Shown here: piece after piece, positions 261 through 36,011 of the stretch
Layout: every line of letters starts with the position of its first letter
How positions within the stretch are numbered: the first letter of the stretch is position 1
Origin: Gammaproteobacteria bacterium
GTDB taxonomy: Bacteria; Pseudomonadota; Gammaproteobacteria; Steroidobacterales; Steroidobacteraceae
Direction: 5' to 3'
Length of the DNA stretch: 36,011 bases
Assembly: GCA_030038755.1 (NCBI GenBank)
Contig: JASHSK010000215.1
Span: 1 to 36,011, forward strand
Notes under the pieces: generated by a model
What the model was told of the DNA's origin: nothing
Database searches by the model: none
Seen by the model: only the letters and a program-made list of their open reading frames with translations
Program-made: the position numbers and the translations under genes

Positions 261-1823
261 GTGCGGGCTCGACAGTGGCTGCTGCACACGTTGCTCGTCG
301 TGGCAGTGCTGTTACAGCACTCCAGCGCGATGGCCCCTTCGGGGCAGGCGGCCGCACGCGCCCAGCCGGCACCGCCCAGGTTCGGGTTCGCGGATGTGCA
401 GCGTCTTGCGCAGCAGCGTGCCGCCAGTCCGTACATGGACCGCTCGAGCCCACTGCCCGACAGTCTCGCGCATCTCACCTACGATCAGTACCGTCAGATC
501 CGATTTCGCCCCGAGCGCGCCCTGTGGCGCGACCAGGCCATGTTCGAGGTGCAGTTCTTCCAGCGCGGATTCAATTACCGCCGCAGCGTCAACATCACCG
601 AGGTTGCGCCCGACGGCACCCTGCACCCGGTGCTCTACGACCCGGGCGACTTTGATTTTGGCAGCAATGCCGCCGCCGTACACCCGCAGACCCTGCCTCC
701 GAGCCTGGGGTTCGCGGGCTTCCGCGTGCACTATCCGCTGCAGCGGCCCGATTACAAGGACGAGCTGATCGTGTTTCTCGGTGCCTCCTACTTCCGGGTG
801 CTGGGTCGCGATCAGAGCTACGGGGCCTCGGCACGCGGGCTGGCCATCGACGTGGCCTCGCCCCAGGGCGAGGAGTTTCCCTACTTCAGCGATTTCTGGC
901 TGGTGCGCCCGCCGCCGCAGGAGCGCACGCTCACCATCTACGCGCTGCTGGACAGCCCGAGCCTCACGGGCGCGTACCGATTCGAGGTACGACCGGGCGG
1001 CACCACCGACGTGGAGGTCAGCGCAACGCTCTACCCGCGTCGCAGCGTCGACAAGCTCGGCCTTGCGCCACTCACCTCGATGTACCTGTACGGGCTCAAC
1101 AGCACTCTGGCGGAGAATGATTTTCGTCCCGAGGTCCACGACAGCGACGGACTGATCGAGCAGACCGGTACCGGGGAGTGGCTGTGGCGGCCGCTGGCGA
1201 ATCCCAAGGCGCTGAGCGTGTCGAGCTTCTCGGACGAGCATCCGCGCGGCTTCGGTCTGGATCAGCGCGATCGCGACTTCAACGACTACCAGGACGAGGA
1301 AGCGCACTACCAGCAGCGGCCGAGCTACTGGGTGGCGCCGCTGGGGGATTGGGGTCAGGGTCGGGTCGAGCTGGTCGAGATCCCGAGCGACGAGGAGATT
1401 CACGACAACATCGTCGCCTACTGGGTACCGGCGACCCGGCTGGTACCGGGCAAGCCATTCAGCTTTTCCTACCTGCTATCGGCCTATCTGTATTCGCCGC
1501 TGTGGCCCCCCGGCGGCCGCGCGGTCGCCACCCGCACCACCAGCATCCCCGGGCATGCAAGCGCCAACACCCACCGCTTGATGATCGACTTCTGGGGTGG
1601 GGATCTCAATTTGCTCGATGCCTCGCAGCCCGTGCAGGCTCAGATCAGCGCTCACAACGGCACCGTCAGCGGTATCACGGTGCAGCATCTGGCGGAAAAC
1701 GGCGTATGGCGCGCGACCTTTGACGTCGCCTCCAAGCCCGGCCAGAGTGTCGACCTGCGCTGCTACCTGACGCTGTATGGAGAGGCGCTCACCGAAACCT
1801 GGACATATCTGTGGACACCCTGA
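261..1823 (+). CDS. opgG: Glucan biosynthesis protein OpgG (MdoG)
   Basis: This 520-residue periplasmic protein is needed to build osmoregulated periplasmic glucans, where OpgG acts on the beta-glucan backbone made by OpgH. The first 25 or so residues (RARQWLLHTLLVVAVLL, then a polar stretch) look like a signal peptide. The mature part carries family sequences such as FGFADVQRLAQ near residue 42, LTYDQYRQIRF near 72, the FQRGFNYRRSV segment, and TSMYLYGLN near 272. Length matches the family (about 510 residues). The start is GTG, supported by AGGAG six bases upstream. The stop lies inside the first codons of opgH, so the two are almost certainly one operon. OpgD is a paralogue with similar sequence; the neighbour opgH makes OpgG the better name. 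The 260 bases before it hold no gene I can support. Confidence 0.93.
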   Translation: MRARQWLLHTLLVVAVLLQHSSAMAPSGQAAARAQPAPPRFGFADVQRLAQQRAASPYMDRSSPLPDSLAHLTYDQYRQIRFRPERALWRDQAMFEVQFFQRGFNYRRSVNITEVAPDGTLHPVLYDPGDFDFGSNAAAVHPQTLPPSLGFAGFRVHYPLQRPDYKDELIVFLGASYFRVLGRDQSYGASARGLAIDVASPQGEEFPYFSDFWLVRPPPQERTLTIYALLDSPSLTGAYRFEVRPGGTTDVEVSATLYPRRSVDKLGLAPLTSMYLYGLNSTLAENDFRPEVHDSDGLIEQTGTGEWLWRPLANPKALSVSSFSDEHPRGFGLDQRDRDFNDYQDEEAHYQQRPSYWVAPLGDWGQGRVELVEIPSDEEIHDNIVAYWVPATRLVPGKPFSFSYLLSAYLYSPLWPPGGRAVATRTTSIPGHASANTHRLMIDFWGGDLNLLDASQPVQAQISAHNGTVSGITVQHLAENGVWRATFDVASKPGQSVDLRCYLTLYGEALTETWTYLWTP

Positions 1824-3775
1824 GCAGACAGTCATCGGAGCCCGTCGTACTGCGTGCCAACGGCCTGCGATCGCAGGCGCTGTGGCGTCGCTCGCTCTTT
1901 TTCGGCCTGACGCTGCTGACGGCGCTCGCCGGCGGACTGCTGATGCTCGATGTGCTGCGCGCCAACGGGCTGTCGGGACTCAACATCGCCGGACTCGTGA
2001 TGTTCACGGCGCTGTTCACCTGGATCACCGGGGCGTTCTGGACCGCGGTGGCGGGATTCATCATCCGCCTGATCGGCCGTGATCCGGCCATTCTTGCCGC
2101 CGCGCACACCTCGCACCGCAGTGTGCGGGGCCGTACCGCCATCGTCACACCGATCTTCAACGAAGACACTGCGCGGGTGTTCGCCGGCGTCGAGGCCATC
2201 TGGCGCTCGCTGATGCAGCAGCGTGACCAGGAAAGCTTCGATTTCTTCATTCTCTCCGATACGCGTCATGCGGAAACCGCCTGCGCCGAAGAGACCGCCT
2301 GGCGCGCCCAGGTCGCCCGCCTCGGAGCGCAGGGGCGGCTGTTCTACCGCCGCCGCAGCGAAAACACCGGGCGCAAGGCCGGCAACATCGCCGAGTTCGT
2401 GCGCAACTGGGGCGGCGCCTACGACTACATGATCGTGCTGGATGCCGACAGCATCATGAGCGGCCAGGCCCTGGTATCGCTCGCACAGGTGATGGATGCG
2501 CATCCGGAGGTCGGCATCATCCAGACGCTGCCGCTGCTGGTGGGACGCGAGACGCTGTTCGCGCGGCTGCTGCAGTTCGCGGTGCGGCTGAACGGCCCCA
2601 TGTTCGCGAGCGGTCTGGCCTTCTGGCAGCTCGGCGACAGCAACTACTGGGGTCATAACGCGATCGTGCGGCTGCGGCCGTTCGCCGAGCATTGCGCGCT
2701 GCCGCGCCTGCCGGGCGCGCCCCCGTTCGGCGGGGAGATCCTCAGCCACGACATCGTCGAGGCGGCCTTCATGCGCCGCGCCGGCTATCAAATCTGGTTG
2801 ATGCCGGACATCGCCGGCAGCTGGGAGGAGATCCCCTCCAACGTGATCGACTTTGCGGCACGCGACCGGCGCTGGGCGCAGGGCAACCTGCAGCACGTCG
2901 GCGTCATGCCCATGCGCGGACTGCATTGGCTGAGCCGCGTGCACATGCTCACCGGCATCCTCTCCTATGCGACCTCGCCCATGTGGCTGCTGGTGCTGGT
3001 GCTGAGCTCCATCGTGACGTGCCTGGCGGCGCTCTCGAGCCACCAGTACTTCCAGCCGGGGACCTACACGCTGTTCCCCAGCTGGCCGCAGTACCGCGAC
3101 GGTGAGATCGCCGCGCTGCTGACGATGACCATCACGCTGCTGATGCTGCCGAAACTGCTCGGTGCGTGCCTCGCACTGCGCGACCGCGCGCTGCGCCGCT
3201 CCTTCGGCGGCACCTGGCGCCTGATGGGCAGCCTGCTGTTCGAGCAGCTCATGAGCATGCTGCTCGCCCCGACCATGATGCTGTTTCATTCGAGCTTCGT
3301 GCTGCGCGCGCTGCTGGGCCGGAACGTCGGCTGGGACGCGCAGGCGCGCGGTGATCGCGGAGTCGGCTGGCTCGAGGCGCTGAGGCGGCACGGCTGGCAC
3401 GTGGGGCTCGGCCTGGTCTGGGGAGCCGCCATATTCGAGCTCGCTCCCGCCTTCATCTGGTGGATGCTGCCGGTCATCGCCGGCCTGCTGGTCCCGGTGC
3501 CCTTCACGGTGCTCACCAGCCGCAGCACCCTCGGTCGCCGCCTGCGCGCGCACGGCTTGCTGCTGACTCCGGAGGAATCCTGCCCGCCACCGGAGCTGCT
3601 GTCCGTCAACCGGCACGTACCGCTGCCGGTCAGCCTCTCACCGCTGGCCGCCGCTCAGCCCGAGCAGCCCTCGCCCCCGCGCCTGCCACAGCGCGTGCCG
3701 CTGGTGATGATTTCCACTCCCCCGTCGTACATCGGCAGCTTCGCCAAGCCGGCGCCGCTGAACGTCGGCCGCTGA
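1811..3775 (+). CDS. opgH: Glucans biosynthesis glucosyltransferase OpgH (MdoH)
   Basis: Inner-membrane family-2 glycosyltransferase that polymerises glucose from UDP-glucose into the linear backbone of periplasmic glucans. Two N-terminal membrane segments (about residues 27-48 and 56-80) precede a cytosolic catalytic domain with IVTPIFNED near 114, a DADS metal/nucleotide motif, WGHNAIVRL, and a (R/Q)xxRW-type motif in RDRRWAQGN. More membrane helices follow from about residue 385. The protein is 654 residues against about 847 in Escherichia coli; the missing part is the long cytosolic N-terminus, as in short OpgH proteins of Xanthomonas type. Translation starts at GTG 1811, overlapping opgG by 13 bases. 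The last 70 residues are proline-rich and poorly conserved. Identification is firm. Confidence 0.95.
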   Translation: MDTLSRQSSEPVVLRANGLRSQALWRRSLFFGLTLLTALAGGLLMLDVLRANGLSGLNIAGLVMFTALFTWITGAFWTAVAGFIIRLIGRDPAILAAAHTSHRSVRGRTAIVTPIFNEDTARVFAGVEAIWRSLMQQRDQESFDFFILSDTRHAETACAEETAWRAQVARLGAQGRLFYRRRSENTGRKAGNIAEFVRNWGGAYDYMIVLDADSIMSGQALVSLAQVMDAHPEVGIIQTLPLLVGRETLFARLLQFAVRLNGPMFASGLAFWQLGDSNYWGHNAIVRLRPFAEHCALPRLPGAPPFGGEILSHDIVEAAFMRRAGYQIWLMPDIAGSWEEIPSNVIDFAARDRRWAQGNLQHVGVMPMRGLHWLSRVHMLTGILSYATSPMWLLVLVLSSIVTCLAALSSHQYFQPGTYTLFPSWPQYRDGEIAALLTMTITLLMLPKLLGACLALRDRALRRSFGGTWRLMGSLLFEQLMSMLLAPTMMLFHSSFVLRALLGRNVGWDAQARGDRGVGWLEALRRHGWHVGLGLVWGAAIFELAPAFIWWMLPVIAGLLVPVPFTVLTSRSTLGRRLRAHGLLLTPEESCPPPELLSVNRHVPLPVSLSPLAAAQPEQPSPPRLPQRVPLVMISTPPSYIGSFAKPAPLNVGR

Positions 3776-24845: not shown

Positions 24846-26087
24846 ATGTCAGCCTCGCCGCCCACGCGCCACGCCCATCCGATCGTGTTCCTGGTGCTGT
24901 ACCTGCCTTACGGGATCCCGGGCGGGTACATCATCGTGACGCTGGCATACCTGCTCTCGCAGGCGGGCGTGAGCGTCACGCAGATCGCCGCGCTCGTGGC
25001 CCTGTCGTACGTGCCTCAGACCTGGAAGGTGGCGTGGGCGCCGATCGTGGACACCATGCTGACGCTGCGGCTGTGGTACGTGATGGCCACGGCATTGAGC
25101 GGACTGCTGATGCTGGGCGCGGCGTTCGTGCCGGCGCGCTCGCAGTACCTCTGGTTGCTCGATGTGCTCGTGGTTCTGATGGGTGTTACCAGCAGCGTCT
25201 CGGGTATGGCCACGGAGAGCCTCATGGCGCATGCGACCGACCGCAGCGAGCAGGGTCGTGCCGGCGGCTGGTCGCAGGCAGGTAACCTCGGTGGGCAGGG
25301 CCTGGGCGGGGGCGCGGCCCTCTGGCTCGCACAGCACGCCACGGGCTGGAGCGCAGGCGCAGTACTCGCGGTCGCGTGCCTGCTGTGTTGCACGGCGCTG
25401 CTGGCGCTGCCGGAGCCGGCGCGCGTGCGCACCGCACAGCGCTACGGTGCGCAGCTGCTTGGCGTTCTGCGGGAGGTGTGGGCACTGGCGCGCTCGCGCA
25501 GCGGATTGCTGGTGGCGCTGCTGGTGTTTCTGCCACTGAGCACGGGCGCCGCCTCCAATCTGTGGTCGCCGCTGGCGCGCGACTGGCATGCGGGCGCCAA
25601 CATCGTCGCGCTGGTGACGGGCGTGCTCAGTGGGTTCATCGCCATGGTCGGCTGCCTGCTCGGCGGCTTCATCACCGACCTCATCAATCGCAAGGCCTCC
25701 TACGCGCTCGCTGGTATCGCGATGGCGCTGTGTGCCATCGTGATGGCGCTCGCGCCGCACTCTCCGATGAGCTTCATCGTCTACACCAGTCTCTATATGC
25801 TGATCAGCGGCTGGGCGTGGGCGGCCTTTTCCGGCGCGACGCTCGAGGCCATCGGCCAGGGAGCGGCCGCGACCAAGTACAACGTGCTCGCCTGCCTGTC
25901 GAACATCCCCATCACCTACATGACGCTCGTCGACGGCGCAGCGCGCACGCGCTGGGGCCCCGCGGGAATGTTGTTCACCGAGGCGCTGATCGGCCTGCTC
26001 GCCGTGCTGATCTTCGTTGCCGTGGCCCTGGTCGCGCGTCCGCGCGCGACGACGGCGAGCTACGCGTCGCCCGCGGCGCAGTCATGA
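24846..26087 (+). CDS. MFS transporter, PAT/AmpG-like
   Basis: Inner-membrane carrier of 413 residues with about 12 helices. The N-terminal IVFLVLYLPYGIPGGYI, the loop YVPQTWKVAWAPIVDT and MATESLMAH near 120 resemble the peptide-acetyl-CoA-transporter group that includes the muropeptide permease AmpG and related proteins in Gammaproteobacteria; substrate here is unknown. The second half has GGFITDLINRKASYAL. ATG 24846 starts the conserved part, but no ribosome site precedes it, so it may be leaderless or start elsewhere. Its TGA and the stop of the convergent diguanylate cyclase gene share TCATGA. Confidence 0.8.
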   Translation: MSASPPTRHAHPIVFLVLYLPYGIPGGYIIVTLAYLLSQAGVSVTQIAALVALSYVPQTWKVAWAPIVDTMLTLRLWYVMATALSGLLMLGAAFVPARSQYLWLLDVLVVLMGVTSSVSGMATESLMAHATDRSEQGRAGGWSQAGNLGGQGLGGGAALWLAQHATGWSAGAVLAVACLLCCTALLALPEPARVRTAQRYGAQLLGVLREVWALARSRSGLLVALLVFLPLSTGAASNLWSPLARDWHAGANIVALVTGVLSGFIAMVGCLLGGFITDLINRKASYALAGIAMALCAIVMALAPHSPMSFIVYTSLYMLISGWAWAAFSGATLEAIGQGAAATKYNVLACLSNIPITYMTLVDGAARTRWGPAGMLFTEALIGLLAVLIFVAVALVARPRATTASYASPAAQS

Positions 26088-28277
26088 GCCGGGCGCGTGC
26101 GTGGACGCGGGCGCGGGCGAAGCCCCGGCCTCCGTCAGAAGCCGCTGCTCGAGCTGGCGCGCGCCCAGCGGCCTGGACAACAGGAAGCCCTGAACCTCAT
26201 CGCAGCCACGCGCGCGCAACCACTCCAGCTGCCCGGGACGCTCCACGCCCTCGGCCGTGACGATCACGTCGAGGCTATGTGCCAGTGCGAGGATGGCGTT
26301 CGCGATGGCGGCGTCGCGCGGCGATTGATCCACCTGGCGAATGAAGCTCTGGTCGATCTTCAGTCGATCGGGCGGAAAGCGTGTGATGTAGGCAAGCGAG
26401 GAATAGCCGGTGCCGAAGTCATCGAGGGCGATGCCGCAACCGAGCGCCCGCAGCCGCTCGAGCGCCTCGCGGACGGTCGCGGAGTCCTTGATCAGCAGCG
26501 ACTCGGTGATCTCGATCTCGATCAGCGAGGCCGGAATACCGGCCGCGGCGGCTTCCGCCTCGACCACGCGCGCGACGTCTCCGTGCAGCATCTGCTTGCC
26601 GGATACGTTGATCGCCACCGGCAGCGCCAACCCCCGTGCCTGCCAGGCGGCCAGCTGCCGGCACACCGCACGGATGACCCAGCTGCCCAGCTCGATGATC
26701 AGGCCGCTATCCTCGGCGATCTCGACGAAGCGGTTCGGGGGGATGTCGCCATGCTCGGCATCGCACCAGCGCAGCAGGGCTTCGACGCCGACCAGCCGTT
26801 GATCACGCAGGCGGAACTTCGGCTGGAACTGCAGTGCGAGGCGCTCCTGCTGCACGGCGTGGCGCAATCGCGCCTCCAGATCCAGCCAGTCGCGCAGCCG
26901 GCTGCTCATGGCAGGCGCATAGATGGCGACCGATCGCGCGGCACCGCTCTTCGCCTGGTACATCGCGGTGTCGGCGTTCTTCAGCACCGTGGCGACGTCC
27001 GGACCATCATCCGGATAGACGGCCACGCCGATGCTCGGCGCCGGGTAGAACTCCAGCCCCTCGTAGGCAATCGGATTCAGAAAGGCGCGACGGCACGCCT
27101 CGGCCACCTCGTCGGCCAGGGGCCGCACGTCCGCATGCCGCAGGAGAATCACGAACTCATCGCCGCCGAAACGCGCGACCGAGGAGACCGCGCCGTCGCG
27201 ACGGCACTGCTCGAGCGCGTGCATCAGCCGCGCTGCGACCGTGCGCAGCACCGCATCGCCGACCGAGTGCCCGAAGGCGTCGTTGATGCGCTTGAAGCTG
27301 TTCAGATCCAGATACACCACCGCCACGGACTGACGCAGCCGATCCGCTTCTGCAAACAGCGCCTCGGCCGTCTCGATGCAGCGCTGGCGGTTCGGCAGAC
27401 CGGTCAGCGGATCGAAATAGGCCAGCCGCTCGATGCGCTCGGCCGCGGCAGTGCGCTCGCTGGTATCCTGACGTACGACGACGACGTCACCGCCCTCGCG
27501 GCGGCTGAACCGCAGCTCATAGGATTGCGTCCCGCTCTCACGGTACTGCAGGCGGCGTTGCACTCCGTCCTGTGCCGTCTTCCGGATCGCGGACAGCACC
27601 TGGGGCAGCTGCTCCGCGGGCGCCAGCGATTCGACCTGCGGTCCGGCCGCATTGGGACTCCACAGGATGCGGCCGTCCGGCGCGACGACCCACAACGTGT
27701 CGGGAATTGCTTCCACCAGGGTGCGCACCTGCGTGACCCGCTCGGCGAGCGCGCGCGCCGCGGCGGCGTTGCGCAGTATGTACTCCAGCCGCCGCGGCAG
27801 CAGCGACCAGTTGACGGGCTTGGATATGAAATCGGTCGCGCCGGCCTCGAAGGCGCGCGTGACGGCCGTGGAGTCCTCATGCCCCGTCACCATGACGATC
27901 GGCACGGCAGGCAGCTGCGCCTGTGCACGCAGTCGCCGACACACGGCATAGCCGTCCAGGCCCGGCATGTCGACGTCCAGCAGCACGATCGCCAGCTCGC
28001 CGCTGGCCGCCGCCGCCAGGGCCGCCGCCAGGGCCGCCGTGCCGTTGTCGAACGCCTGCGGGGTGAGTCCGCGCGCCAGCACCGACTCAGCCAGCAACAG
28101 CCGGCCGATGTCCTCATCGTCGGCGATGATCGCGATACGCGGCGCGTGCACGGGCCGTGTGTCGGCTGCGTCTGCGCGGCCGGCTGCGTTGGCCGGGCTG
28201 GCCGCGTCGGAGACGTCGGTCGTGCCGGACGGCTGCGGCGGCAACTCCCACGATGCTCTGTGGACGGCCTGGCTCAT
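26082..28277 (-). CDS. REC-PAS-GGDEF-EAL response regulator (c-di-GMP turnover)
   Basis: Cytosolic output protein of a two-component pathway, 731 residues. Receiver domain about 47-170 with phosphorylation site Asp101 (LLDVDMPG) and the Lys of SKPVNW; PAS-like domain about 190-285; GGDEF at 371-375 (RFGGDEF), so the cyclase site is intact; EAL domain from Glu499 (GVEALLRW) with EITESL, LDDFGTGYSS, KIDQSFI and AEGVE all kept, so the phosphodiesterase is probably active as well. The product-inhibition site RxxD before GGDEF is missing. ATG 28277 has AGGAGA upstream and overlaps the stop of the hybrid kinase by ATGA, which makes that kinase the likely phosphodonor. Net direction, synthesis or breakdown, cannot be told. 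Confidence 0.93.
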   Translation of the reverse strand: MSQAVHRASWELPPQPSGTTDVSDAASPANAAGRADAADTRPVHAPRIAIIADDEDIGRLLLAESVLARGLTPQAFDNGTAALAAALAAAASGELAIVLLDVDMPGLDGYAVCRRLRAQAQLPAVPIVMVTGHEDSTAVTRAFEAGATDFISKPVNWSLLPRRLEYILRNAAAARALAERVTQVRTLVEAIPDTLWVVAPDGRILWSPNAAGPQVESLAPAEQLPQVLSAIRKTAQDGVQRRLQYRESGTQSYELRFSRREGGDVVVVRQDTSERTAAAERIERLAYFDPLTGLPNRQRCIETAEALFAEADRLRQSVAVVYLDLNSFKRINDAFGHSVGDAVLRTVAARLMHALEQCRRDGAVSSVARFGGDEFVILLRHADVRPLADEVAEACRRAFLNPIAYEGLEFYPAPSIGVAVYPDDGPDVATVLKNADTAMYQAKSGAARSVAIYAPAMSSRLRDWLDLEARLRHAVQQERLALQFQPKFRLRDQRLVGVEALLRWCDAEHGDIPPNRFVEIAEDSGLIIELGSWVIRAVCRQLAAWQARGLALPVAINVSGKQMLHGDVARVVEAEAAAAGIPASLIEIEITESLLIKDSATVREALERLRALGCGIALDDFGTGYSSLAYITRFPPDRLKIDQSFIRQVDQSPRDAAIANAILALAHSLDVIVTAEGVERPGQLEWLRARGCDEVQGFLLSRPLGARQLEQRLLTEAGASPAPASTHAPGS

Positions 28278-31200
28278 GCGCTCTCCTGCCGCAGCTGTGT
28301 CAGTTCCTCCAGCAGCGCTGGATGCGCTGCCGCCAGACGCTCGTACAAGGGCCGCGCGTCGGCCAGCTGTCCGGCGCGACACAGCTGCTCGAGTTCCCGG
28401 AGGTTGCCCGCGAAGGCGCGCGCTCCGACGTTGCCCGCACTCGCGGCCAGGCGGTGGCACAGCGCCGCGGCGGCGGCAAGATCCGGCTGCTCGAGCGCCG
28501 TGCGCAGTTGCGCGAGACCATCCACCGAGTTGGTCTTGAACAGCTCCACGACTCGCGAATACAGATCGGCATGGCCGGCGGCCCGCAGGCCGCGCAGCTG
28601 CACGACCGTCGCCACATCCACGGTGGAGAGTGCAGAGAACGTGTCGGCTGCGCCGCTCCCGGCTCGAGCGAAGCGGTGCAGCAGTCGTGCGCACTGCTCG
28701 AGCGTGTAGGGCTTGCTGAGCAGATCGTCCATGCCGGCGCCCAGACAGCTGTCACGATAGTGTGTCGAGTTGTGCGCCGTCAGCGCGACGATGGGCGTGC
28801 GTCGTGCCGCCGTCTCACGCTGACGAATCAGCGCAGTGGTCGCGAACCCGTCCATTCCCGGCATGCTCAGATCCATCAGGATCAGATCGAAGTGTTCGGC
28901 CGCAGTGCGCGCGACCGCCTGTGGGCCACTCTGGACCCACACGCAGGTGCAACCCAGCCGGTCAAGGTAGCCTTCTGCGACAGCTGCGTTGACCGGATCG
29001 TCTTCGACCAGCAGCACGTGCGCAGCCGTGTCGGCGTCGCTCGGCGTCGTGCTGCTGCCCGTCGCGCTGCCCGTCGCGCTGCCCGTCGTGCTGCCCGTCG
29101 CGCTGCTGGGCGCCTCGGCAGCCGCACTGGACACGTCGCCGGCAGCCGGCCGTGCGTGGGCCGTGGCGGAGCGCGTCGTGGCGGAGCGTCCCAGCGCCGC
29201 GGCAATGGCCTCCGCCAGACTATCCCTGTGGACGGGCTTGGTGACCAGCCGGGGCGCGAGCCGCTGCAAGCCTGCCGCCTCCAGAGTCGCGGCACTGCCG
29301 ACGACCACCAGCGCAGGCCCCGAAGCATCGGCAGGTGCGGCACCGGCACTGTCGGAACGCTCGAGCGCAGTCACAGCCTGCGGCATGCTGTCGGCGTCTA
29401 CGATCTGCAGATAGGGCTGTGAAGCGGGCTGCGCACTCTCCTCTTCATTGATCACCGTCAGGCCGAGAGCGCGCACCTGACGCGCCAGAGAATCGGCCAG
29501 CGCCGGCCGCCGCGTCGCGATGCTCACGCGGGCCGGCGGCAGAGCGGCGCCGGCAACCGTGGCCGCGGCCGGGGCGCGCTCCAGCGGCTCGTCGCCGAGC
29601 TTCAGCGGCAGCGACACATGGAAGGTCGAGCCCAGCTGCGGTCGACTCTCGACGCGGATCGAGCCGCCCATGAGCTCCACCAGCTCGCGGCAGATGGCCA
29701 GGCCGAGTCCCGTGCCGCCGAAGCGGCGCGTGGTGGATTCATCCGCCTGCGTGAACGGCTCGAAAATGCGCTCGATCGTCGCAGGCTCCATGCCGATGCC
29801 CGTGTCTGACACGCGCAGCAGCACCGTGGCGCAGCCGGGCGCGCCGGACTGCACGTCGGCGCGGACGACCACCTCGCCCTCCACGGTGAACTTCACCGCG
29901 TTGGCCACCAGGTTCACGAGAATCTGCCTCACGCGAAGCGGATCACCGCGCAGGTTGAGCCACGGGCGTGGCGGCGGGCAGATGATCAGGTCGATTCCCT
30001 TCGTCTGACCCACGAACAGGTCCGCACATTCCTCGAGCAGCGCTCCCAGATCGATCGGCAGCTCCTCGAGCCTCACCTTGCCGGCGTTGATCTTCGAGAG
30101 GTCGAGCAGGTCGTTGACCGTCTGCACCAGGATGCGCGCCGAGGAACGGATCGTGCGGGTCAGGCGCGCCTGCGTCGGGCTGAGCGCGGTACAGGCGAGC
30201 AACTCCGTCATGCCCACGACACCGTTCATCGGCGTGCGCAGCTCGTGGCTCATGCGGTCCAGGAATTTGCTCTTGACCTGCAGCGCCTCGCCGAGACGCT
30301 CGTTGCTCTCGAGCAGCTCGCGCGTGCGTAGCGCCACCTGGCGCTCGAGGCGGGCTCGAGCGTGCTCGACGCGCCGCAGCCTGGCACGCTGACGACCCAC
30401 GGCCAGAGCCAGCAGCCCCAGCAGCGCCAGCGCATAGGCCGTATAGGCGGTGCGCGAGCGCCACGGCGCCGGATCCTTGTGGATCGTCAGGCGCAGCGCT
30501 GGTCCCCACACCGAGTCGGAACTGGCGGCGCGCACTTCGAGCGTGTGGTTACCGGCATCCAGATTCGTCAGCGTGACGCGATGCTGCGAGCCGAGGTCGA
30601 TCCAGCGGTCGGTCAGGCCCGAGAGACGATAGGCGATGCGGTTGCGCTCCGGCGTGGAAAAATCCAGCACTCCGAAATCCAGCGACACGATGCTGGCGCG
30701 ATAACCGAGCGAGAGCCGATCACGCGCCCAGGTGGGCGTCGGGCCCACCAGGGGTGCACCCAGCACCTGCACCTGCGTCAACACCAGCCGCGGCGGCGCG
30801 CGCGCTTCGGTCAGGTGCGTGGGATCGAAAATATTGAAGCCGCCGGCGCCACCGAAGCACAGCCGGCCGTCGCGCAGCCGTGCGGCCGCGCCGGAATCGA
30901 ATTCCTCGCCCTGCAGGCCATCCTCGCGATGATAGGTTTTGACGACCCCGGTGTCCGGATCCAGGCGCATGAGCCCCGCATTGCCGCTCAACCACAGCCG
31001 CCCGTTCGCATCCACCAGCACCGCATAAATCGTGTCGCTGCTCAGCCCGGCGTCGCGCGAAATCGTCCTGAAGTGCAGCGCGCCGCCGGCGCGCGCATCC
31101 CCGCGAGCGGCGCCGTGCGCCGTCTCCTGCGCCACGCCGGTGACATCGGCGACGGCCAGGCCGCCGCCATCCGTGCCGACCCACAGCCGCCCGTGTGCAT

Positions 31201-32965
31201 CCACGGTGAGCGCGTAGATGGTGTTGGCGGGCAGCGACGCAGGATCGTTCGGGTCGTGGCGGTAGACGCGCACCACGGTGCCATCGGCGCGCGCCAGGTC
31301 CACGCCACCCCCGTTGGTGCCCAGCCAGAAGTTTCCGTGCTCATCCTCGGCGATGGCGCGCACGGCAGCGGCGCTCACGGCGCCGGGGACGCTCGGGGCT
31401 CCGGACGCGGATGACTCGAAGGGCAGCTGGCGCACGAGCCCCGTAGCCGGATCGAGAATATTCAGCCCACCACCGTAGGTGCCGATCCAGACGTGCCCAT
31501 CCTGAGCCTCGTGGATCGCCATGATTCCGGCGGCGCTGAGACCGTGTGGATCTCCCGGCCTGGCCGCGATGGTTCGCACGCGTCCATCAGCGGACAGCTC
31601 GCGCAGCCCGCTGCTCATCGTGCCGATCCAGAGCGTACCCTGATGGTCGGTGAGCAACGACATGATGCGGCTCTCGCCGAGGGCATCAGGGTGGCCCGCG
31701 AGCCTGTCGAATGAGGTGGCTGCACCACTGGAGGGGTCGAACTGCGCCAGCCCCGCGCCCGCCGAGGCAACCCACACCGTGTGGTGCGGTCCATCGGCGA
31801 AGGCCGTGACCTGCTGGCCGTCGAGCCAACCCGGCTGGCGCGCACCAAGCTCCCAACTGCGCGGATCCCAGCGGCTCACACCGCCCGCCAGGGTCCCAAT
31901 CCATACCAGCCCGGTGTCGTCCTCGTACAGCGACTTGATGAACGAGTCGCGCAGCGAGTCCGCATCACCCTGCTCGTGACGATAGTGCCCGAAGGTGCCG
32001 GTCCGTGGATCGAGCAAATCCAGGCCGTCGGTGGTCCCGACCCACAGGTGCCCGGCCCGGTCCCGAAGCAATGCGCGCACGTCGTCGCTGCCGAGAGAAT
32101 CGGACTGCCGGGCATCGTGACGGAACGCCTGCAGGATGTGCCCGGAGCCGTCCAGGTGGGTCAGGCCGCTATCGTAGGTCCCGACCCAAAGCCCGCCGGC
32201 ACCGTCCTGCAGTACCGAGGACACCTGGTGACCAGGCCACGCATGCACGAACCGCCGTTGCCGCGGATCATAGCGGTCCAATCCGGCTCCGGTGCCAACC
32301 CACACGGATCCGGTGCTGTCAGCGCTATCCGCCACCAGGGTGAATACGTGGTCGTCGATCAATGAGCCAGGGTCGGCAGCGTCGTGACGCAGGTGCCGGA
32401 AGGTGCCGGCGGCCGGGTCGAGCACGTCCACGCCCGCATCGCTCATGCCGACCCACACGCGGCCGCGTGCATCCACAAGCACGGCGTGCGGGTCGTCGCT
32501 CGCCAGCGAAGCCGGCTGCCGTGGGTCGTGGCGGTAGACGGTGAAGTCGTCGGTCGCGTGGTTCCAGCGGGCCAGGCCCGCATCCTTGATCGCGACCCAC
32601 AGATCGTGGTCAGGGTCCTCGGCGATCTGATAGATGTAGTTGCCCGGCAGAGTGCCATGCGTGCCGGGCGAATACGCGTAGCGGATCAGCCGATCGCCGT
32701 CGTAGCGGATCAGGCCATCCTGGGTGCCCAGCCAGATGAAGCCACGCGAGTCCTGCAGCGTCGTCATCACCGTGCTCTGCGGCAGCCCGTTGGCCGTCGT
32801 CAGGTGCTCGAGGATGAGCGGCGGCGCGCTCGTGTCCGCCGCCGTCGCCTCGAGCGGCAGCACCACGAGCGGCAGCGCGGCGAGCAGCGCGAGCGACAGC
32901 GTCAGCAGCGACGCGCCGGGCGCCGGGCCCCGGCGCCAGCCCGGCTCGCTGTGACGCACGCTCAC
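28274..32965 (-). CDS. Hybrid sensor histidine kinase with 14 propeller repeats, receiver and Hpt
   Basis: A 1563-residue membrane sensor. After a signal segment (LTLSLALLAALPLVVL) come 14 repeats of the Reg_prop kind (GFIWLGTQDGL, GRVWVGMSDAG, GHLWVGTTDGL and others), enough for two seven-bladed propellers in the periplasm, then a Y_Y_Y domain, one membrane helix near 833-855 (AYALALLGLLALAVG), HisKA with His907 (MSHELRTPMNG), HATPase (NAVKF, DTGIGM, GGTGLGLAI), a receiver-like domain lacking the N-terminal acidic pair (about 1145-1250), a full receiver with Asp1365 (LILMDLSMPG), and an Hpt domain with His1504 (CHRLAASAGNVGA). GTG 32965 is 16 bases after the protease stop; GTG 32959 is an alternative. 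The design resembles Bacteroides hybrid systems, but output goes to the GGDEF-EAL gene, not a DNA-binding domain. Confidence 0.92.
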   Translation of the reverse strand: MSVRHSEPGWRRGPAPGASLLTLSLALLAALPLVVLPLEATAADTSAPPLILEHLTTANGLPQSTVMTTLQDSRGFIWLGTQDGLIRYDGDRLIRYAYSPGTHGTLPGNYIYQIAEDPDHDLWVAIKDAGLARWNHATDDFTVYRHDPRQPASLASDDPHAVLVDARGRVWVGMSDAGVDVLDPAAGTFRHLRHDAADPGSLIDDHVFTLVADSADSTGSVWVGTGAGLDRYDPRQRRFVHAWPGHQVSSVLQDGAGGLWVGTYDSGLTHLDGSGHILQAFRHDARQSDSLGSDDVRALLRDRAGHLWVGTTDGLDLLDPRTGTFGHYRHEQGDADSLRDSFIKSLYEDDTGLVWIGTLAGGVSRWDPRSWELGARQPGWLDGQQVTAFADGPHHTVWVASAGAGLAQFDPSSGAATSFDRLAGHPDALGESRIMSLLTDHQGTLWIGTMSSGLRELSADGRVRTIAARPGDPHGLSAAGIMAIHEAQDGHVWIGTYGGGLNILDPATGLVRQLPFESSASGAPSVPGAVSAAAVRAIAEDEHGNFWLGTNGGGVDLARADGTVVRVYRHDPNDPASLPANTIYALTVDAHGRLWVGTDGGGLAVADVTGVAQETAHGAARGDARAGGALHFRTISRDAGLSSDTIYAVLVDANGRLWLSGNAGLMRLDPDTGVVKTYHREDGLQGEEFDSGAAARLRDGRLCFGGAGGFNIFDPTHLTEARAPPRLVLTQVQVLGAPLVGPTPTWARDRLSLGYRASIVSLDFGVLDFSTPERNRIAYRLSGLTDRWIDLGSQHRVTLTNLDAGNHTLEVRAASSDSVWGPALRLTIHKDPAPWRSRTAYTAYALALLGLLALAVGRQRARLRRVEHARARLERQVALRTRELLESNERLGEALQVKSKFLDRMSHELRTPMNGVVGMTELLACTALSPTQARLTRTIRSSARILVQTVNDLLDLSKINAGKVRLEELPIDLGALLEECADLFVGQTKGIDLIICPPPRPWLNLRGDPLRVRQILVNLVANAVKFTVEGEVVVRADVQSGAPGCATVLLRVSDTGIGMEPATIERIFEPFTQADESTTRRFGGTGLGLAICRELVELMGGSIRVESRPQLGSTFHVSLPLKLGDEPLERAPAAATVAGAALPPARVSIATRRPALADSLARQVRALGLTVINEEESAQPASQPYLQIVDADSMPQAVTALERSDSAGAAPADASGPALVVVGSAATLEAAGLQRLAPRLVTKPVHRDSLAEAIAAALGRSATTRSATAHARPAAGDVSSAAAEAPSSATGSTTGSATGSATGSSTTPSDADTAAHVLLVEDDPVNAAVAEGYLDRLGCTCVWVQSGPQAVARTAAEHFDLILMDLSMPGMDGFATTALIRQRETAARRTPIVALTAHNSTHYRDSCLGAGMDDLLSKPYTLEQCARLLHRFARAGSGAADTFSALSTVDVATVVQLRGLRAAGHADLYSRVVELFKTNSVDGLAQLRTALEQPDLAAAAALCHRLAASAGNVGARAFAGNLRELEQLCRAGQLADARPLYERLAAAHPALLEELTQLRQESA
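29054..29101. repeat. 12-bp tandem repeat in the kinase linker
   Basis: Four units of GCTGCCCGTCGC (third ends in T), then a diverged one. In frame, they encode the SATG/TTGS-type linker between pseudo-receiver and receiver of the hybrid kinase. Confidence 0.92.
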
Positions 32966-32981
32966 GGCTTTCAGCCACGGG

Positions 32982-34895
32982 CTACTGATTGGGAACCCAG
33001 TTCTCGATCGAAGCCGGTGCCGTCGAGGTGGCACTGCCCGGCTGCGAGGTCCACCACCACGGCACCGAGCTGTTCCAGGTGTACCCCTTGGTCCAGGTAT
33101 CGGCCTTCGTCCAGGTGTCCGCCTTGGTCCAGGTATCCGCGTTGCTCCACTCGTAGCCGTAGCTCCAGGTATACCCGTCGGACCAGACGTAGCCCTGGCT
33201 CCAGCTGTAGCCCTGATCCCACGGATAGCCGGCATCCCACGTCAGCCCGTCGCCCGGTAGCGGCGTGCCCCAGGTGGAGGCCGCCATGTTCATGATGTAG
33301 AACTGCCCGCTCGCGTTCTCGTTGGCCGGGCCGCCAAAGTGTTCGGTGCCCGCCAGATCCGCGGCGACGTCGAGCCCGACGTTCGCGCAACCGCTCGCCG
33401 AGCTGTTGACCGCGGACACCGCATTGATGAGGCCCGCGCCCTGCTGGAAGACGCTGTACGCGAGCGTGCCCGCGGAGGTGACCGCAGGCTCGGCGGTCGA
33501 CAGCAGGCGGCACTTCACCGTGTCCGGGGTCAGACTCGGGTCTTCCTGGATCATCTGTGCCACGACGCCGGTGGTCACCGCCGCGGCCATCGAGGTACCC
33601 GACATCGTGAACAGATTCTCTCCGGGCATCATCGAGTTCGGGTCGATGTTGGCCAGATAGCTGCTGCCGGACATCGATGCGGTGATGTGGCCGCCCGGGG
33701 CAATCAGCTCCGGCTTGACGAAGCCCTCGTAGGTCGGCCCCGTGGAAGAGAACGATGCCAACCGATCGTCGTTCGGATCATTGGGAGTGTAGTTGTCCGT
33801 GAGGGCTCCGACCGTGATCACGTAGGGCACGTTGCCCGGCACGTCGATCGTCATCGGCGTAGGCCCTTCGTTGCCCGCAGCGGCAACCACCACGATTCCG
33901 GCCTGCCACGCGGCCATGACCGCCTGGTCGATCGGGTCGTCCCAGTAGAAGGACTGCGGCGGGGCGCCAAAGGACAGGTTCAGTACACGGATGTTGTACT
34001 TCTGGCGATTGGCGACGATCCAGTCCAGCCCGGCGATCACATCCACGTAACGACCTTCTCCCGTGCCGTCGAAGGCCTGTACCACGACCACGTTCGCCTG
34101 CGGAGCGATGCTCAGATACTGACCGGCAAGATTCTGTGCGCCACCCGCGGCGATGGAGGTCACGTGCGTGCCATGCCCATACGGGTCACCGGTGACCGGG
34201 CCGCTGGCGCCGTCGAGCACATCCTGCGTGGCGAGCACGCGGCTGCCCCAGTTCTGCAGCACGTCCTCCCACAGACCCGAGTCCAGCACCGCGATCGTGA
34301 CGCCCTTGCCGGTGATGCCGGCCTGCTGCAGGGTGTCGGCGCCAATGCGCGCGGGAAAGTTGGTGTAGAAGAGCAGGCTCGGCGTCGCAACACCACTGCC
34401 GTCCTGCGTGCTCGTGCTGCTCGTGATGGCGGAAACCACCGGTGTCGTGACGGAGCTGACGACGGGATTTGTCTCCACCGCGGAGAGCACCGGCGCGACC
34501 ACGCTGCTCGTGACGGCGCCCACGGCAGAGCTCGAGACGGTCTCATTGACCGCGCTGGTAGCCGAGTTCACCGTCGATTCCAGGGAGCCGGTAAGGGATC
34601 CGAGCAGCGAGTCCGACTGACTGGTGCGCAGGGACCGATCACCGTACAGGCGCACGCCGAAGCGCTTGCGCAGCTGCGCCGCCTGGCGCACCGTCAGCCG
34701 CGCCGACACCGCATGAATGATTGCAAGCGTACGGTCCGCGTGCGCCCCCACGCTCTGCACGCTGTCGCGGGCGGCCGCCACCGATGCTGCCTCGACGATG
34801 TAGATGGACCCGCTCGTATCGGCGAGAGCGGATGCGAAGTGACCCGCCAGCAGCACGGGCAGCGTCACCGAAATGATCAACCGTTGAATGCGCAT
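32982..34895 (-). CDS. Secreted subtilisin-like serine protease (S8) with Trp-rich C-terminal repeats
   Basis: A 637-residue exported protease. Signal peptide at 1-26 (MRIQRLIISVTLPVLLAGHF...ALA), then an I9-like propeptide (about 28-90: IYIVEAASV to LYGDRS), a Ser/Val/Thr-rich region to 165, and the S8 domain with Asp205 (VLDSGL), His241 (YGHGTHV), oxyanion Asn342 (AAGNEG) and Ser435 (MSGTSMAAA): the full triad. Residues 551-615 are a repeat of Trp every five to six residues (GYSWSQGYVWSDGYTWSYGY, then ADTWTK three times). MRIQR is taken as start because it opens the signal peptide; GTG 34949 is in frame upstream. The sensor kinase follows 16 bases on, so cotranscription is likely. Confidence 0.92.
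   Translation of the reverse strand: MRIQRLIISVTLPVLLAGHFASALADTSGSIYIVEAASVAAARDSVQSVGAHADRTLAIIHAVSARLTVRQAAQLRKRFGVRLYGDRSLRTSQSDSLLGSLTGSLESTVNSATSAVNETVSSSAVGAVTSSVVAPVLSAVETNPVVSSVTTPVVSAITSSTSTQDGSGVATPSLLFYTNFPARIGADTLQQAGITGKGVTIAVLDSGLWEDVLQNWGSRVLATQDVLDGASGPVTGDPYGHGTHVTSIAAGGAQNLAGQYLSIAPQANVVVVQAFDGTGEGRYVDVIAGLDWIVANRQKYNIRVLNLSFGAPPQSFYWDDPIDQAVMAAWQAGIVVVAAAGNEGPTPMTIDVPGNVPYVITVGALTDNYTPNDPNDDRLASFSSTGPTYEGFVKPELIAPGGHITASMSGSSYLANIDPNSMMPGENLFTMSGTSMAAAVTTGVVAQMIQEDPSLTPDTVKCRLLSTAEPAVTSAGTLAYSVFQQGAGLINAVSAVNSSASGCANVGLDVAADLAGTEHFGGPANENASGQFYIMNMAASTWGTPLPGDGLTWDAGYPWDQGYSWSQGYVWSDGYTWSYGYEWSNADTWTKADTWTKADTWTKGYTWNSSVPWWWTSQPGSATSTAPASIENWVPNQ
33051..33245. repeat. Trp-rich repeat region of the protease C-terminus
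   Basis: Encodes residues 551-615 of the protease with Trp at near-regular intervals. It includes three consecutive 18-bp units at 33087-33140, each coding for ADTWTK and differing at few bases; the rest are older, diverged units coding for GYxWS. Confidence 0.9.
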
Positions 34896-35070: not shown

Positions 35071-35110
35071 TGCGGGCTGCTACGGGCTGCTGCGGGCTGC
35101 TGCGGCTGCT
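35071..35110. repeat. 10-bp tandem repeat past the stop of the EAL gene
   Basis: TGCGGGCTGC, TACGGGCTGC, TGCGGGCTGC, TGCGGCTGCT. The array ends in the stop codon of the truncated EAL gene and lies between it and the protease promoter region (34896-35070), where I see no convincing promoter. Confidence 0.9.
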
Positions 35111-36011
35111 ATCGGCCGGTCATCGCGCCGGCTGCGAGCGCATCCGTCGCGGCGGCGGCGAAGCTATCCGTATAGAGGTCTCCGCTGCCCAGACGGCATC
35201 CCAGCCCGAGCAACGTATCGCGCAGCTGCGGGTCATCGACACCGGTGGCGATCGGTGTGAGCCCGAGCCCGCTCGCCACGGCGATACCGGCGCGGCAGAC
35301 CTTCAACGCCACTTCGTCGTGCCGCACGGCCGTCACCCAGGCGCGATCGAGCTGCAATCCCCACAACGGCGCGTGCGCGAGCTGATCCAGAGAGCCCATG
35401 TCGCGGGCAACCTCATCGACCACGAGCTGTACGCCCAGCTGACGCAATGACTGCAGCAGCTGCGGAGCGCACGCCGTCAGCGTCCGCTCCGCGATCCGCA
35501 ACTCCAGAGCCTGCGGCGGCAGCGCGCTATCCGCGAGGAAGCGCTCGATGTCGCCCACGAAGTCCTCGTGCAGCACGTGATGGCGCAGCGCGCCGAAGGA
35601 GATCTGCACGTCCGCCCCCCAGTGCGTGCGCAGCGCGGCGCAGTCCTCGCGCAGGCAGCGCAGCACTGCACGGGAAAGCTCCGTGGCAAGGCCCGTCGTC
35701 TCCGCGATGCGCAGGAACTCGACCGGCCGGATCTCCCCGCGCAGCGCGTGCATCCAGCGCACGTAACCCACCCATGCGACGCAGCGACCCGTGGCCAGAT
35801 CATGCCGCCCGACGTAGCGCAGGCGAACGTCACGCTTTTCGATCGCCTCACGCAGTTCACGCGCGGCATCCAGCTGCGCACGCGCGCCCAGCGATGCCGT
35901 CTGGGAGAAAAACACCGCGCGCTGCGCGCCGCTGCGCCGCGCCTCGGCGGCGGCAGCGTGTGCGCGATCCACCAGTGTCCTGGCCGACACCGCCTCTTCT
36001 CCCAGGATCGC
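35109..36011 (-). CDS. Degenerate EAL-domain protein, 5' end beyond the window
   Basis: The last 300 residues of a longer protein; the frame runs open to the window edge. The first 30 visible residues (EEAVSARTLVDRAHAAAAEA) look like the end of a GGDEF or GGDEF-like domain. The remainder aligns with an EAL domain but nearly every catalytic residue is changed: EAL is VGY (VGYVRW), the DDFGTG loop is VDEVARDMG, the catalytic Lys in KIDxxF is Gln (LQLDRAWV), and the late Gln in GxxxGQG is Ser (GCRLGSGDLY). It therefore most likely binds c-di-GMP or a protein partner, or only scaffolds, and does not hydrolyse. It lies upstream of the protease on the same strand, 213 bases away. Confidence 0.8.
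   Translation of the reverse strand, partial: AILGEEAVSARTLVDRAHAAAAEARRSGAQRAVFFSQTASLGARAQLDAARELREAIEKRDVRLRYVGRHDLATGRCVAWVGYVRWMHALRGEIRPVEFLRIAETTGLATELSRAVLRCLREDCAALRTHWGADVQISFGALRHHVLHEDFVGDIERFLADSALPPQALELRIAERTLTACAPQLLQSLRQLGVQLVVDEVARDMGSLDQLAHAPLWGLQLDRAWVTAVRHDEVALKVCRAGIAVASGLGLTPIATGVDDPQLRDTLLGLGCRLGSGDLYTDSFAAAATDALAAGAMTGR

Follow-up and report, generated by a model that had tools for sequence, protein, structure and literature searches.

A secreted subtilase beside a double-propeller sensor kinase and c-di-GMP enzymes: a recurrent gene pairing and a possible route for sensing extracellular protein breakdown

We analyzed a 36,011-nucleotide stretch of DNA from a gammaproteobacterium of the Steroidobacteraceae (assembly GCA_030038755.1, contig JASHSK010000215.1), which we call the window and which contains a run of genes joining a secreted S8 subtilase, a double-propeller sensor kinase and enzymes of cyclic di-GMP (c-di-GMP) metabolism. 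The window is a complete contig (C289) of a 3.74-Mb genome assembled in 376 contigs and 86% complete. In order of transcription, the run comprises a degenerate GGDEF-EAL gene, the subtilase gene, the hybrid kinase gene and a REC-GGDEF-EAL gene, spaced by 213 bases, by 16 bases and by an ATGA overlap, respectively; all four, and the features given below for them, lie on the minus strand. The 16-base gap (32966-32981) separates the protease stop (32982) from the kinase GTG start (32965; an alternative GTG start lies at 32959), while the overlap (28274-28277) unites the kinase stop with the ATG start of the response regulator. An earlier note on this DNA had described the last three genes as a unit on one strand with these two junctions, and the open reading frames, strands and junctions bear this out. 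It had overlooked a fourth member, the degenerate GGDEF-EAL gene on the same strand, of which the 3' part (35109-36011) is present up to the contig end and the GGDEF part lies outside the window. The encoded protein matches Pfam EAL (E value, 8e-37) and has lost the EAL catalytic motifs; in close relatives, the gene stays beside the protease-kinase-regulator unit. A promoter and terminator scan gave a yield no greater than in shuffled sequences.

The protease (32982-34895; 637 residues) is predicted to be secreted, with a hydrophobic signal peptide (residues 6 to 26), a pro-domain (residues 29 to 91; 34623-34811) that we take to be I9-like, a catalytic domain (residues 196 to 486) and a C-terminal tail. 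It carries a Peptidase_S8 domain (Pfam, E value, 1.4e-47) and the catalytic triad of an S8 subtilase, located by motif at D205, H241 and S435. The structure model is confident for the pro-domain and the catalytic domain and disordered over residues 539 to 637. The predicted local distance difference test score (pLDDT) forms a block of 94 to 98 over residues 31 to 90, and the top Foldseek matches of the pro-domain are pro-subtilisins, including 3afg. The triad columns do not vary across alignments of 14 and of 30 protease sequences, and 61 of 66 sensor-linked proteases have D, H and S, the remaining five being gapped at one or two sites, not substituted.

The hybrid kinase (28274-32965; 1,563 residues) starts with a predicted signal peptide and continues with a sensor region of two propellers and a Y_Y_Y domain (30479-32830; Reg_prop E value, 2.9e-54), a transmembrane (TM) stretch (residues 839 to 858), HisKA and HATPase_c domains (29600-30274), a receiver (28694-29017) and an Hpt domain (28286-28552). 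These domains were called by Pfam, and the phosphorelay residues H907, D1365 and H1504 were located by motif. The model of the sensor (mean pLDDT, 89.7) contains two propellers, the Y_Y_Y domain and a single long helix that includes the TM stretch. Its closest solved structures are the Bacteroides sensors BT4663 (4a2m/4a2l, the best match), BT3049 and BT4673, with PorZ a weaker match. The sensor with two periplasmic propellers proposed earlier is supported by the model and by structure matches as the double propeller of the Bacteroides hybrid two-component system (HTCS) fold. Like these HTCS proteins, the window protein joins a periplasmic double propeller and Y_Y_Y through a TM segment to a kinase and a receiver. 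In contrast to them, it ends in an Hpt domain with no helix-turn-helix domain called by Pfam at an E value of 0.01, it is accompanied by a separate REC-GGDEF-EAL protein, and its partner enzyme is a protease. Bacteroides HTCS polysaccharide loci have an extracellular enzyme gene nearby.

The pairing of the protease with the propeller sensor recurs widely. In a reciprocal search, the propeller was used to query 296 genomes of the order and found matches in 62 of them, at 83 places. The 82 places besides the window (76 new regions and six regions from earlier searches) were examined, giving 83 distinct sensor open reading frames, a count that includes one further propeller frame on L190 and in which several sensors come from one genome or near kin. 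Flanks of 2.5 kb or more on each side were available for 55 of these 83 sensors; of the 55, 42 have a same-strand S8 gene within 3 kb and 35 within 300 bases, and an EAL protein is encoded within 3 kb of 40. The linkage falls off sharply with distance: S8 genes occur on 43 of 128 flank sides within 1 kb (L169 to L244) and on 6 of 122 at 1 to 2.5 kb, then, going outward, on 2 of 113, 2 of 109 and 0 of 92, so that S8 density per kilobase drops about 40-fold between 0 to 1 kb and 2.5 to 7 kb from the sensor. In the window genome, at its 86% completeness, there are four S8 places, and all 10 Reg_prop places at an E value of 0.001 lie inside the single kinase frame. We reject chance adjacency on the grounds of these few genomic places, the linkage counts, the distance fall-off and the co-occurrence described below. 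The earlier note had named as a refutation a gene order conserved in no relative; the check was run, the pairing recurs, and the view of the genes as a conserved unit survived it. What did not hold was the remark that subtilases linked to signalling genes are uncommon, such linkage being not rare in these lineages.

Co-occurrence points in the same direction. With cutoffs of 1e-50 for the protease (set after viewing the match list) and 1e-40 for the propeller, 13 of 60 relatives have a close protease homologue, and every one of these is among the 15 genomes in which the propeller is found (Fisher P of 2e-11, uncorrected for kinship); at the looser E value of 0.001, a protease homologue is found in 34 of the 60. 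Since, at the stricter cutoffs, both genes are present in 2 of 15 genomes from the window's genus and neither in the other 13, protease and propeller sensor seem to be gained and lost together. Distances between proteases and distances between propellers are congruent for kinase sensors with the protease upstream (n = 24, r = 0.78) and for GGDEF sensors with the protease downstream (n = 17, r = 0.71). From the protease side, the best 80 of 516 relatives (L059 to L138) have a propeller gene, on either strand, at 17 of the 30 loci L059 to L088 and at 6 of the 50 loci L089 to L138. A class-wide sample of 369 genomes gave six propeller matches, four of them outside the order, and the S8 gene adjoins the sensor in two of these four genomes, once on the same strand and once divergently. 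Hosts of protease-sensor pairs include Steroidobacter, Alteromonas, Aliiglaciecola, Colwellia and Acidobacteria. Among cultured relatives, Steroidobacter gossypii (L065) carries the protease-kinase pair, and Alteromonas salexigens (L068) encodes proteases, a propeller cyclase, a propeller kinase and a REC-GGDEF-EAL protein.

The protease persists while the output behind the propeller changes. Our FastTree tree holds 100 propeller sensors, with long branches flagged and eight duplicate sensors entered once: 55 of GGDEF type (including three GGDEF-EAL fusions), 37 kinases, 6 of sigma-54 type and 2 others, L083 being assigned to the kinases and L076 to the GGDEF type from Pfam. At least 9 changes of output type are required on it. 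Within 3 kb, a same-strand S8 gene accompanies 25 of the 37 kinase-type, 35 of the 55 GGDEF-type and 5 of the 6 sigma-54-type sensors, contig ends not being discounted in these counts; the sixth sigma-54 locus has just 384 bases upstream, and one of the three GGDEF-EAL fusions has S8 within this distance. The six sigma-54 sensors (L236, L238, L240, L242, L243, and L244) form one branch of the tree; all were labelled by length and by missing kinase and GGDEF hits, and L238 and L240 also by Pfam, which finds PAS, GAF, sigma-54 and Fis-type domains. Whether the protease lies upstream or downstream of the sensor varies with the design. Since S8 stays while kinase, cyclase and sigma-54 outputs change, the sensible reading of these sequences is that the protease belongs with the propeller and not with any single output.

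These observations bear on the idea that the circuit uses the protease as an effector, to degrade matrix or nutrients, for example, and that the enzyme is merely co-expressed with propellers that sense something else. Effectors encoded in the operon of their regulators are common, and the protease-sensor linkage also occurs without an adjacent EAL gene, as this idea would have it. However, Pfam finds no DNA-binding domain in the kinase or the response regulator, the pairing outlasts the output swaps, and the position of the protease varies by design, upstream or downstream, and we consider a mere effector rather unlikely.

The third gene of the earlier note (26082-28277; 731 residues) encodes a response regulator with Response_reg, GGDEF and EAL domains by Pfam, intact motifs and the receiver residue D101, located by motif; the PAS domain also proposed for it was not called at an E value of 0.01. 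Comparison of such partners across loci reveals two designs. In the first, the kinase design, all 20 of the REC-GGDEF-EAL proteins encoded directly downstream have retained the phospho-acceptor Asp, 17 of them in a D[VLI]xMP context (L181 and L222 deviate, and L184 is truncated there). With the window included, 15 of 21 of these regulators have both GGDEF and EAL intact, four lacking only GGDEF and two only EAL under a strict pattern. Upstream of the kinases, REC-less GGDEF-EAL proteins have lost both motifs in 8 of 8 loci, and six upstream REC-GGDEF-EAL proteins divide equally into those with both motifs, with EAL only and with neither (two each). In the second, the cyclase design, GG[DE]EF is still present in 53 of the 55 sensor domains. 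The acceptor column of the upstream REC-like partner (n = 25) holds D in 14, E in 10 and P in 1, with D[VLI]xMP in none, and 23 of 27 such partners combine a dead GGDEF with an intact EAL (three have neither and one has both). Upstream REC-less partners of cyclase sensors have EAL only in 18 of 24 cases, neither motif in 5 and both in 1. The downstream partners in L077 and L083 (HisKA_2 kinase sensor by Pfam) keep the Asp, with no D[VLI]xMP. Receiver state appears to track sensor type as a correlation, not as a demonstrated loss; the partners of kinases and those of cyclases may come from separate families.

In the window, an intact kinase His, a receiver Asp, output motifs and adjacent genes provide the elements of a kinase-to-regulator phosphorelay. 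The transfer from Hpt to this receiver that the earlier note had put forward is plausible, as judged from sequence alone, given the Asp kept downstream of kinase sensors versus the degenerate upstream receivers of the cyclase sensors.

The degenerate GGDEF-EAL protein brings to mind LapD/LapG, in which a degenerate GGDEF-EAL protein and an exported protease are linked with c-di-GMP; here, such a protein likewise stands alongside a protease of predicted export. Control could then run from the inside out, with c-di-GMP governing protease release or activity through the degenerate protein, and the presence of this pseudo-enzyme beside the unit, with both motifs lost in 8 of 8 REC-less proteins upstream of kinases, fits that arrangement. 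Against it, eight relatives of the protein, when scanned for hydropathy, show no N-terminal TM pair such as a membrane GGDEF-EAL receptor would have (the window copy being truncated), the partner in most other designs has an intact EAL instead, and the protease is of the S8 family, not a LapG-type cysteine protease. We regard inside-out control as very improbable.

We lean slightly towards a reading in which the protease makes a product that is read by the propellers, the kinase relaying the signal to c-di-GMP. The subtilase would be exported, would lose its pro-domain on maturation and, once beyond the inner membrane, would cut protein into a product bound by the double propeller of the sensor. 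The signal would pass via Y_Y_Y and the single TM helix to HisKA H907, and then through receiver D1365 and Hpt H1504 to D101 of the regulator, whose phosphorylation would shift the balance of the REC-GGDEF-EAL protein between c-di-GMP synthesis and breakdown. The upstream degenerate protein may act as a non-catalytic binder or regulator. We prefer a protease that supplies the stimulus because the pairing outlasts output swaps, catalysis is conserved, and related Bacteroides propeller sensors read products of enzymes encoded nearby. The domains, intact catalytic residues, conserved neighbourhood, co-occurrence and a receiver state following sensor type are read from the sequence; the module and its c-di-GMP output are well supported, and we infer the step from protease to sensor, along with export, the kind of stimulus, phosphotransfer and the part played by the pseudo-enzyme.

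The same pairing across several outputs and the same conserved triad would also suit a protease that cleaves the periplasmic part of the sensor, switching it on or off with no free ligand. The window sensor, however, retains the HTCS ligand-sensor fold, no cleavage site was identified in it, and other protease copies are located away from propellers; sensor cleavage appears unlikely to us. Returning to a protease whose product is the stimulus, we tentatively suggest, with confidence a little short of even, that a tail-bearing subtilase and a double-propeller receptor could form a portable proteolysis-sensing module. This pair would be the fixed input in at least two phyla (Pseudomonadota and Acidobacteriota), with exchangeable outputs: a phosphorelay to a bifunctional c-di-GMP enzyme, a direct cyclase opposed by phosphodiesterases, or a sigma-54 activator. 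Extracellular proteolysis would then be read by these bacteria much as glycan breakdown is read by Bacteroidota that degrade polysaccharides.

Several observations weigh against a protease that supplies the stimulus. No computed result has the protease acting on the sensor or ahead of it in the pathway. In two genomes (G043 and G054) the propeller occurs and a close protease does not, and 13 of the 55 well-flanked sensors, from 11 genomes, have no same-strand S8 within 3 kb; a protease homologue (E value, 1e-20) is present somewhere in 9 of the 10 searched genomes behind these misses, in some beside another sensor. Kinase, response regulator and pseudo-enzyme are retained without S8 in L169 and L170, as are kinase and pseudo-enzyme in L173. 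The distance congruence is absent from the GGDEF group with the protease upstream (n = 16, r = 0.147), weak over all 64 pairs (r = 0.214; shuffle maximum, 0.192) and absent among deep pairs. The sigma-54 branch indicates that the output is not always c-di-GMP, and no EAL gene is found within 3 kb at three kinase-type loci, L205, L213 and L216, the first of which has a REC-GGDEF gene further downstream. Finally, the protease tail does not follow the pairing. Of 170 S8 rows, 110 have a complete end and flanks of 3 kb or more on each side. In this sample, 83 proteases carry at least three W hexads, and 33 of them lack a same-strand propeller within 3 kb; of the 27 with fewer hexads, 12 do have one. 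These counts reject a tail restricted to propeller-linked proteases, a pattern that would have suggested the tail as the ligand.

The tail itself (32985-33281), recognized by alignment, ends in NWVPNQ, has pLDDT values under 50 and gives no Pfam match at an E value of 0.01. Protease tails have W at a spacing of about six residues, and a WVxQE-like end is frequent among the tails listed. Tails with W at every sixth residue occur on subtilases of several phyla and are possibly a surface or sorting signal.

The closest described systems share parts of this assembly. In the RavA/RavR system of Xanthomonas, the phosphorylation target of the kinase is a REC protein bearing GGDEF and EAL, and the system acts on c-di-GMP, matching the kinase-to-REC-GGDEF-EAL output seen here; it differs in that RavA, in the text available, is described as having no recognizable input domain, which does not bear out our suspicion that it might bear propellers, and the words propeller and peptidase are absent from that main text (PMC6707612). 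GdpX2 and GdpX3 of Xanthomonas share a Reg_prop plus Y_Y_Y periplasmic sensor on a c-di-GMP protein, with the function given as unknown in the portion of the source at hand (PMC6637768). One of the matched Bacteroides propeller sensor structures is, by its title, heparin sensing. The open-access PubMed Central text available to us yielded no description of a subtilase-propeller sensor-c-di-GMP unit; in the accessible text of c-di-GMP papers on Xanthomonas and relatives and of a Geobacter transcriptome (PMC9600515 and PMC10599522 included), none describes the unit, and in the Geobacter passages the terms occur separately (PMC10599522). The parts are known; as far as we found, their recurrent assembly with a subtilase, the two c-di-GMP designs and the pseudo-enzyme have no earlier description.

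The recurrent pairing suggests a way of sensing extracellular protein breakdown. We know of no ligand assigned to propeller sensors outside Bacteroidota, nor of an input for most c-di-GMP enzymes; an enzyme partner that is conserved shows experimenters where to seek the propeller stimulus, and from the two designs one can predict which of the neighbouring proteins synthesize c-di-GMP and which break it down.

Linkage of subtilases to signalling genes may be wider than the propeller module. Subtilase relatives of Chloroflexi, Actinobacteria and Acidobacteria (L089, L102, L113, L115, L118, L120, L129, L132, and L136) adjoin histidine kinases, GGDEF-EAL or GGDEF/HD genes, and several of them bear W-containing repeat tails; Pfam found no propeller in the signalling neighbours of the eight scanned (all but L118). 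Eight regions of two genomes with 11 and 15 subtilase matches (L042 to L047, L049, and L056; G044 and G057) contain no propeller gene, and no open reading frame of L039 to L138 and L169 to L244 fuses S8 with a propeller, GGDEF or kinase. At L205, L213 (the same sensor as L065) and L216, propeller kinases with tandem receivers stand beside a subtilase. Among NCBIfam matches (the best 25 of 113 for the response regulator, the best 25 of 143 for the kinase, 9 for the protease and 10 for the fourth gene), only TIGR00254, a generic GGDEF domain model, passes its cutoff. An anti-phage function is unsupported, PADLOC matching the protease to generic subtilase and IetS models and giving no match for the kinase or response regulator. 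Elsewhere in the window, positions 261 to 3775 encode MdoG and a group 2 glycosyltransferase, probably for periplasmic glucan synthesis.

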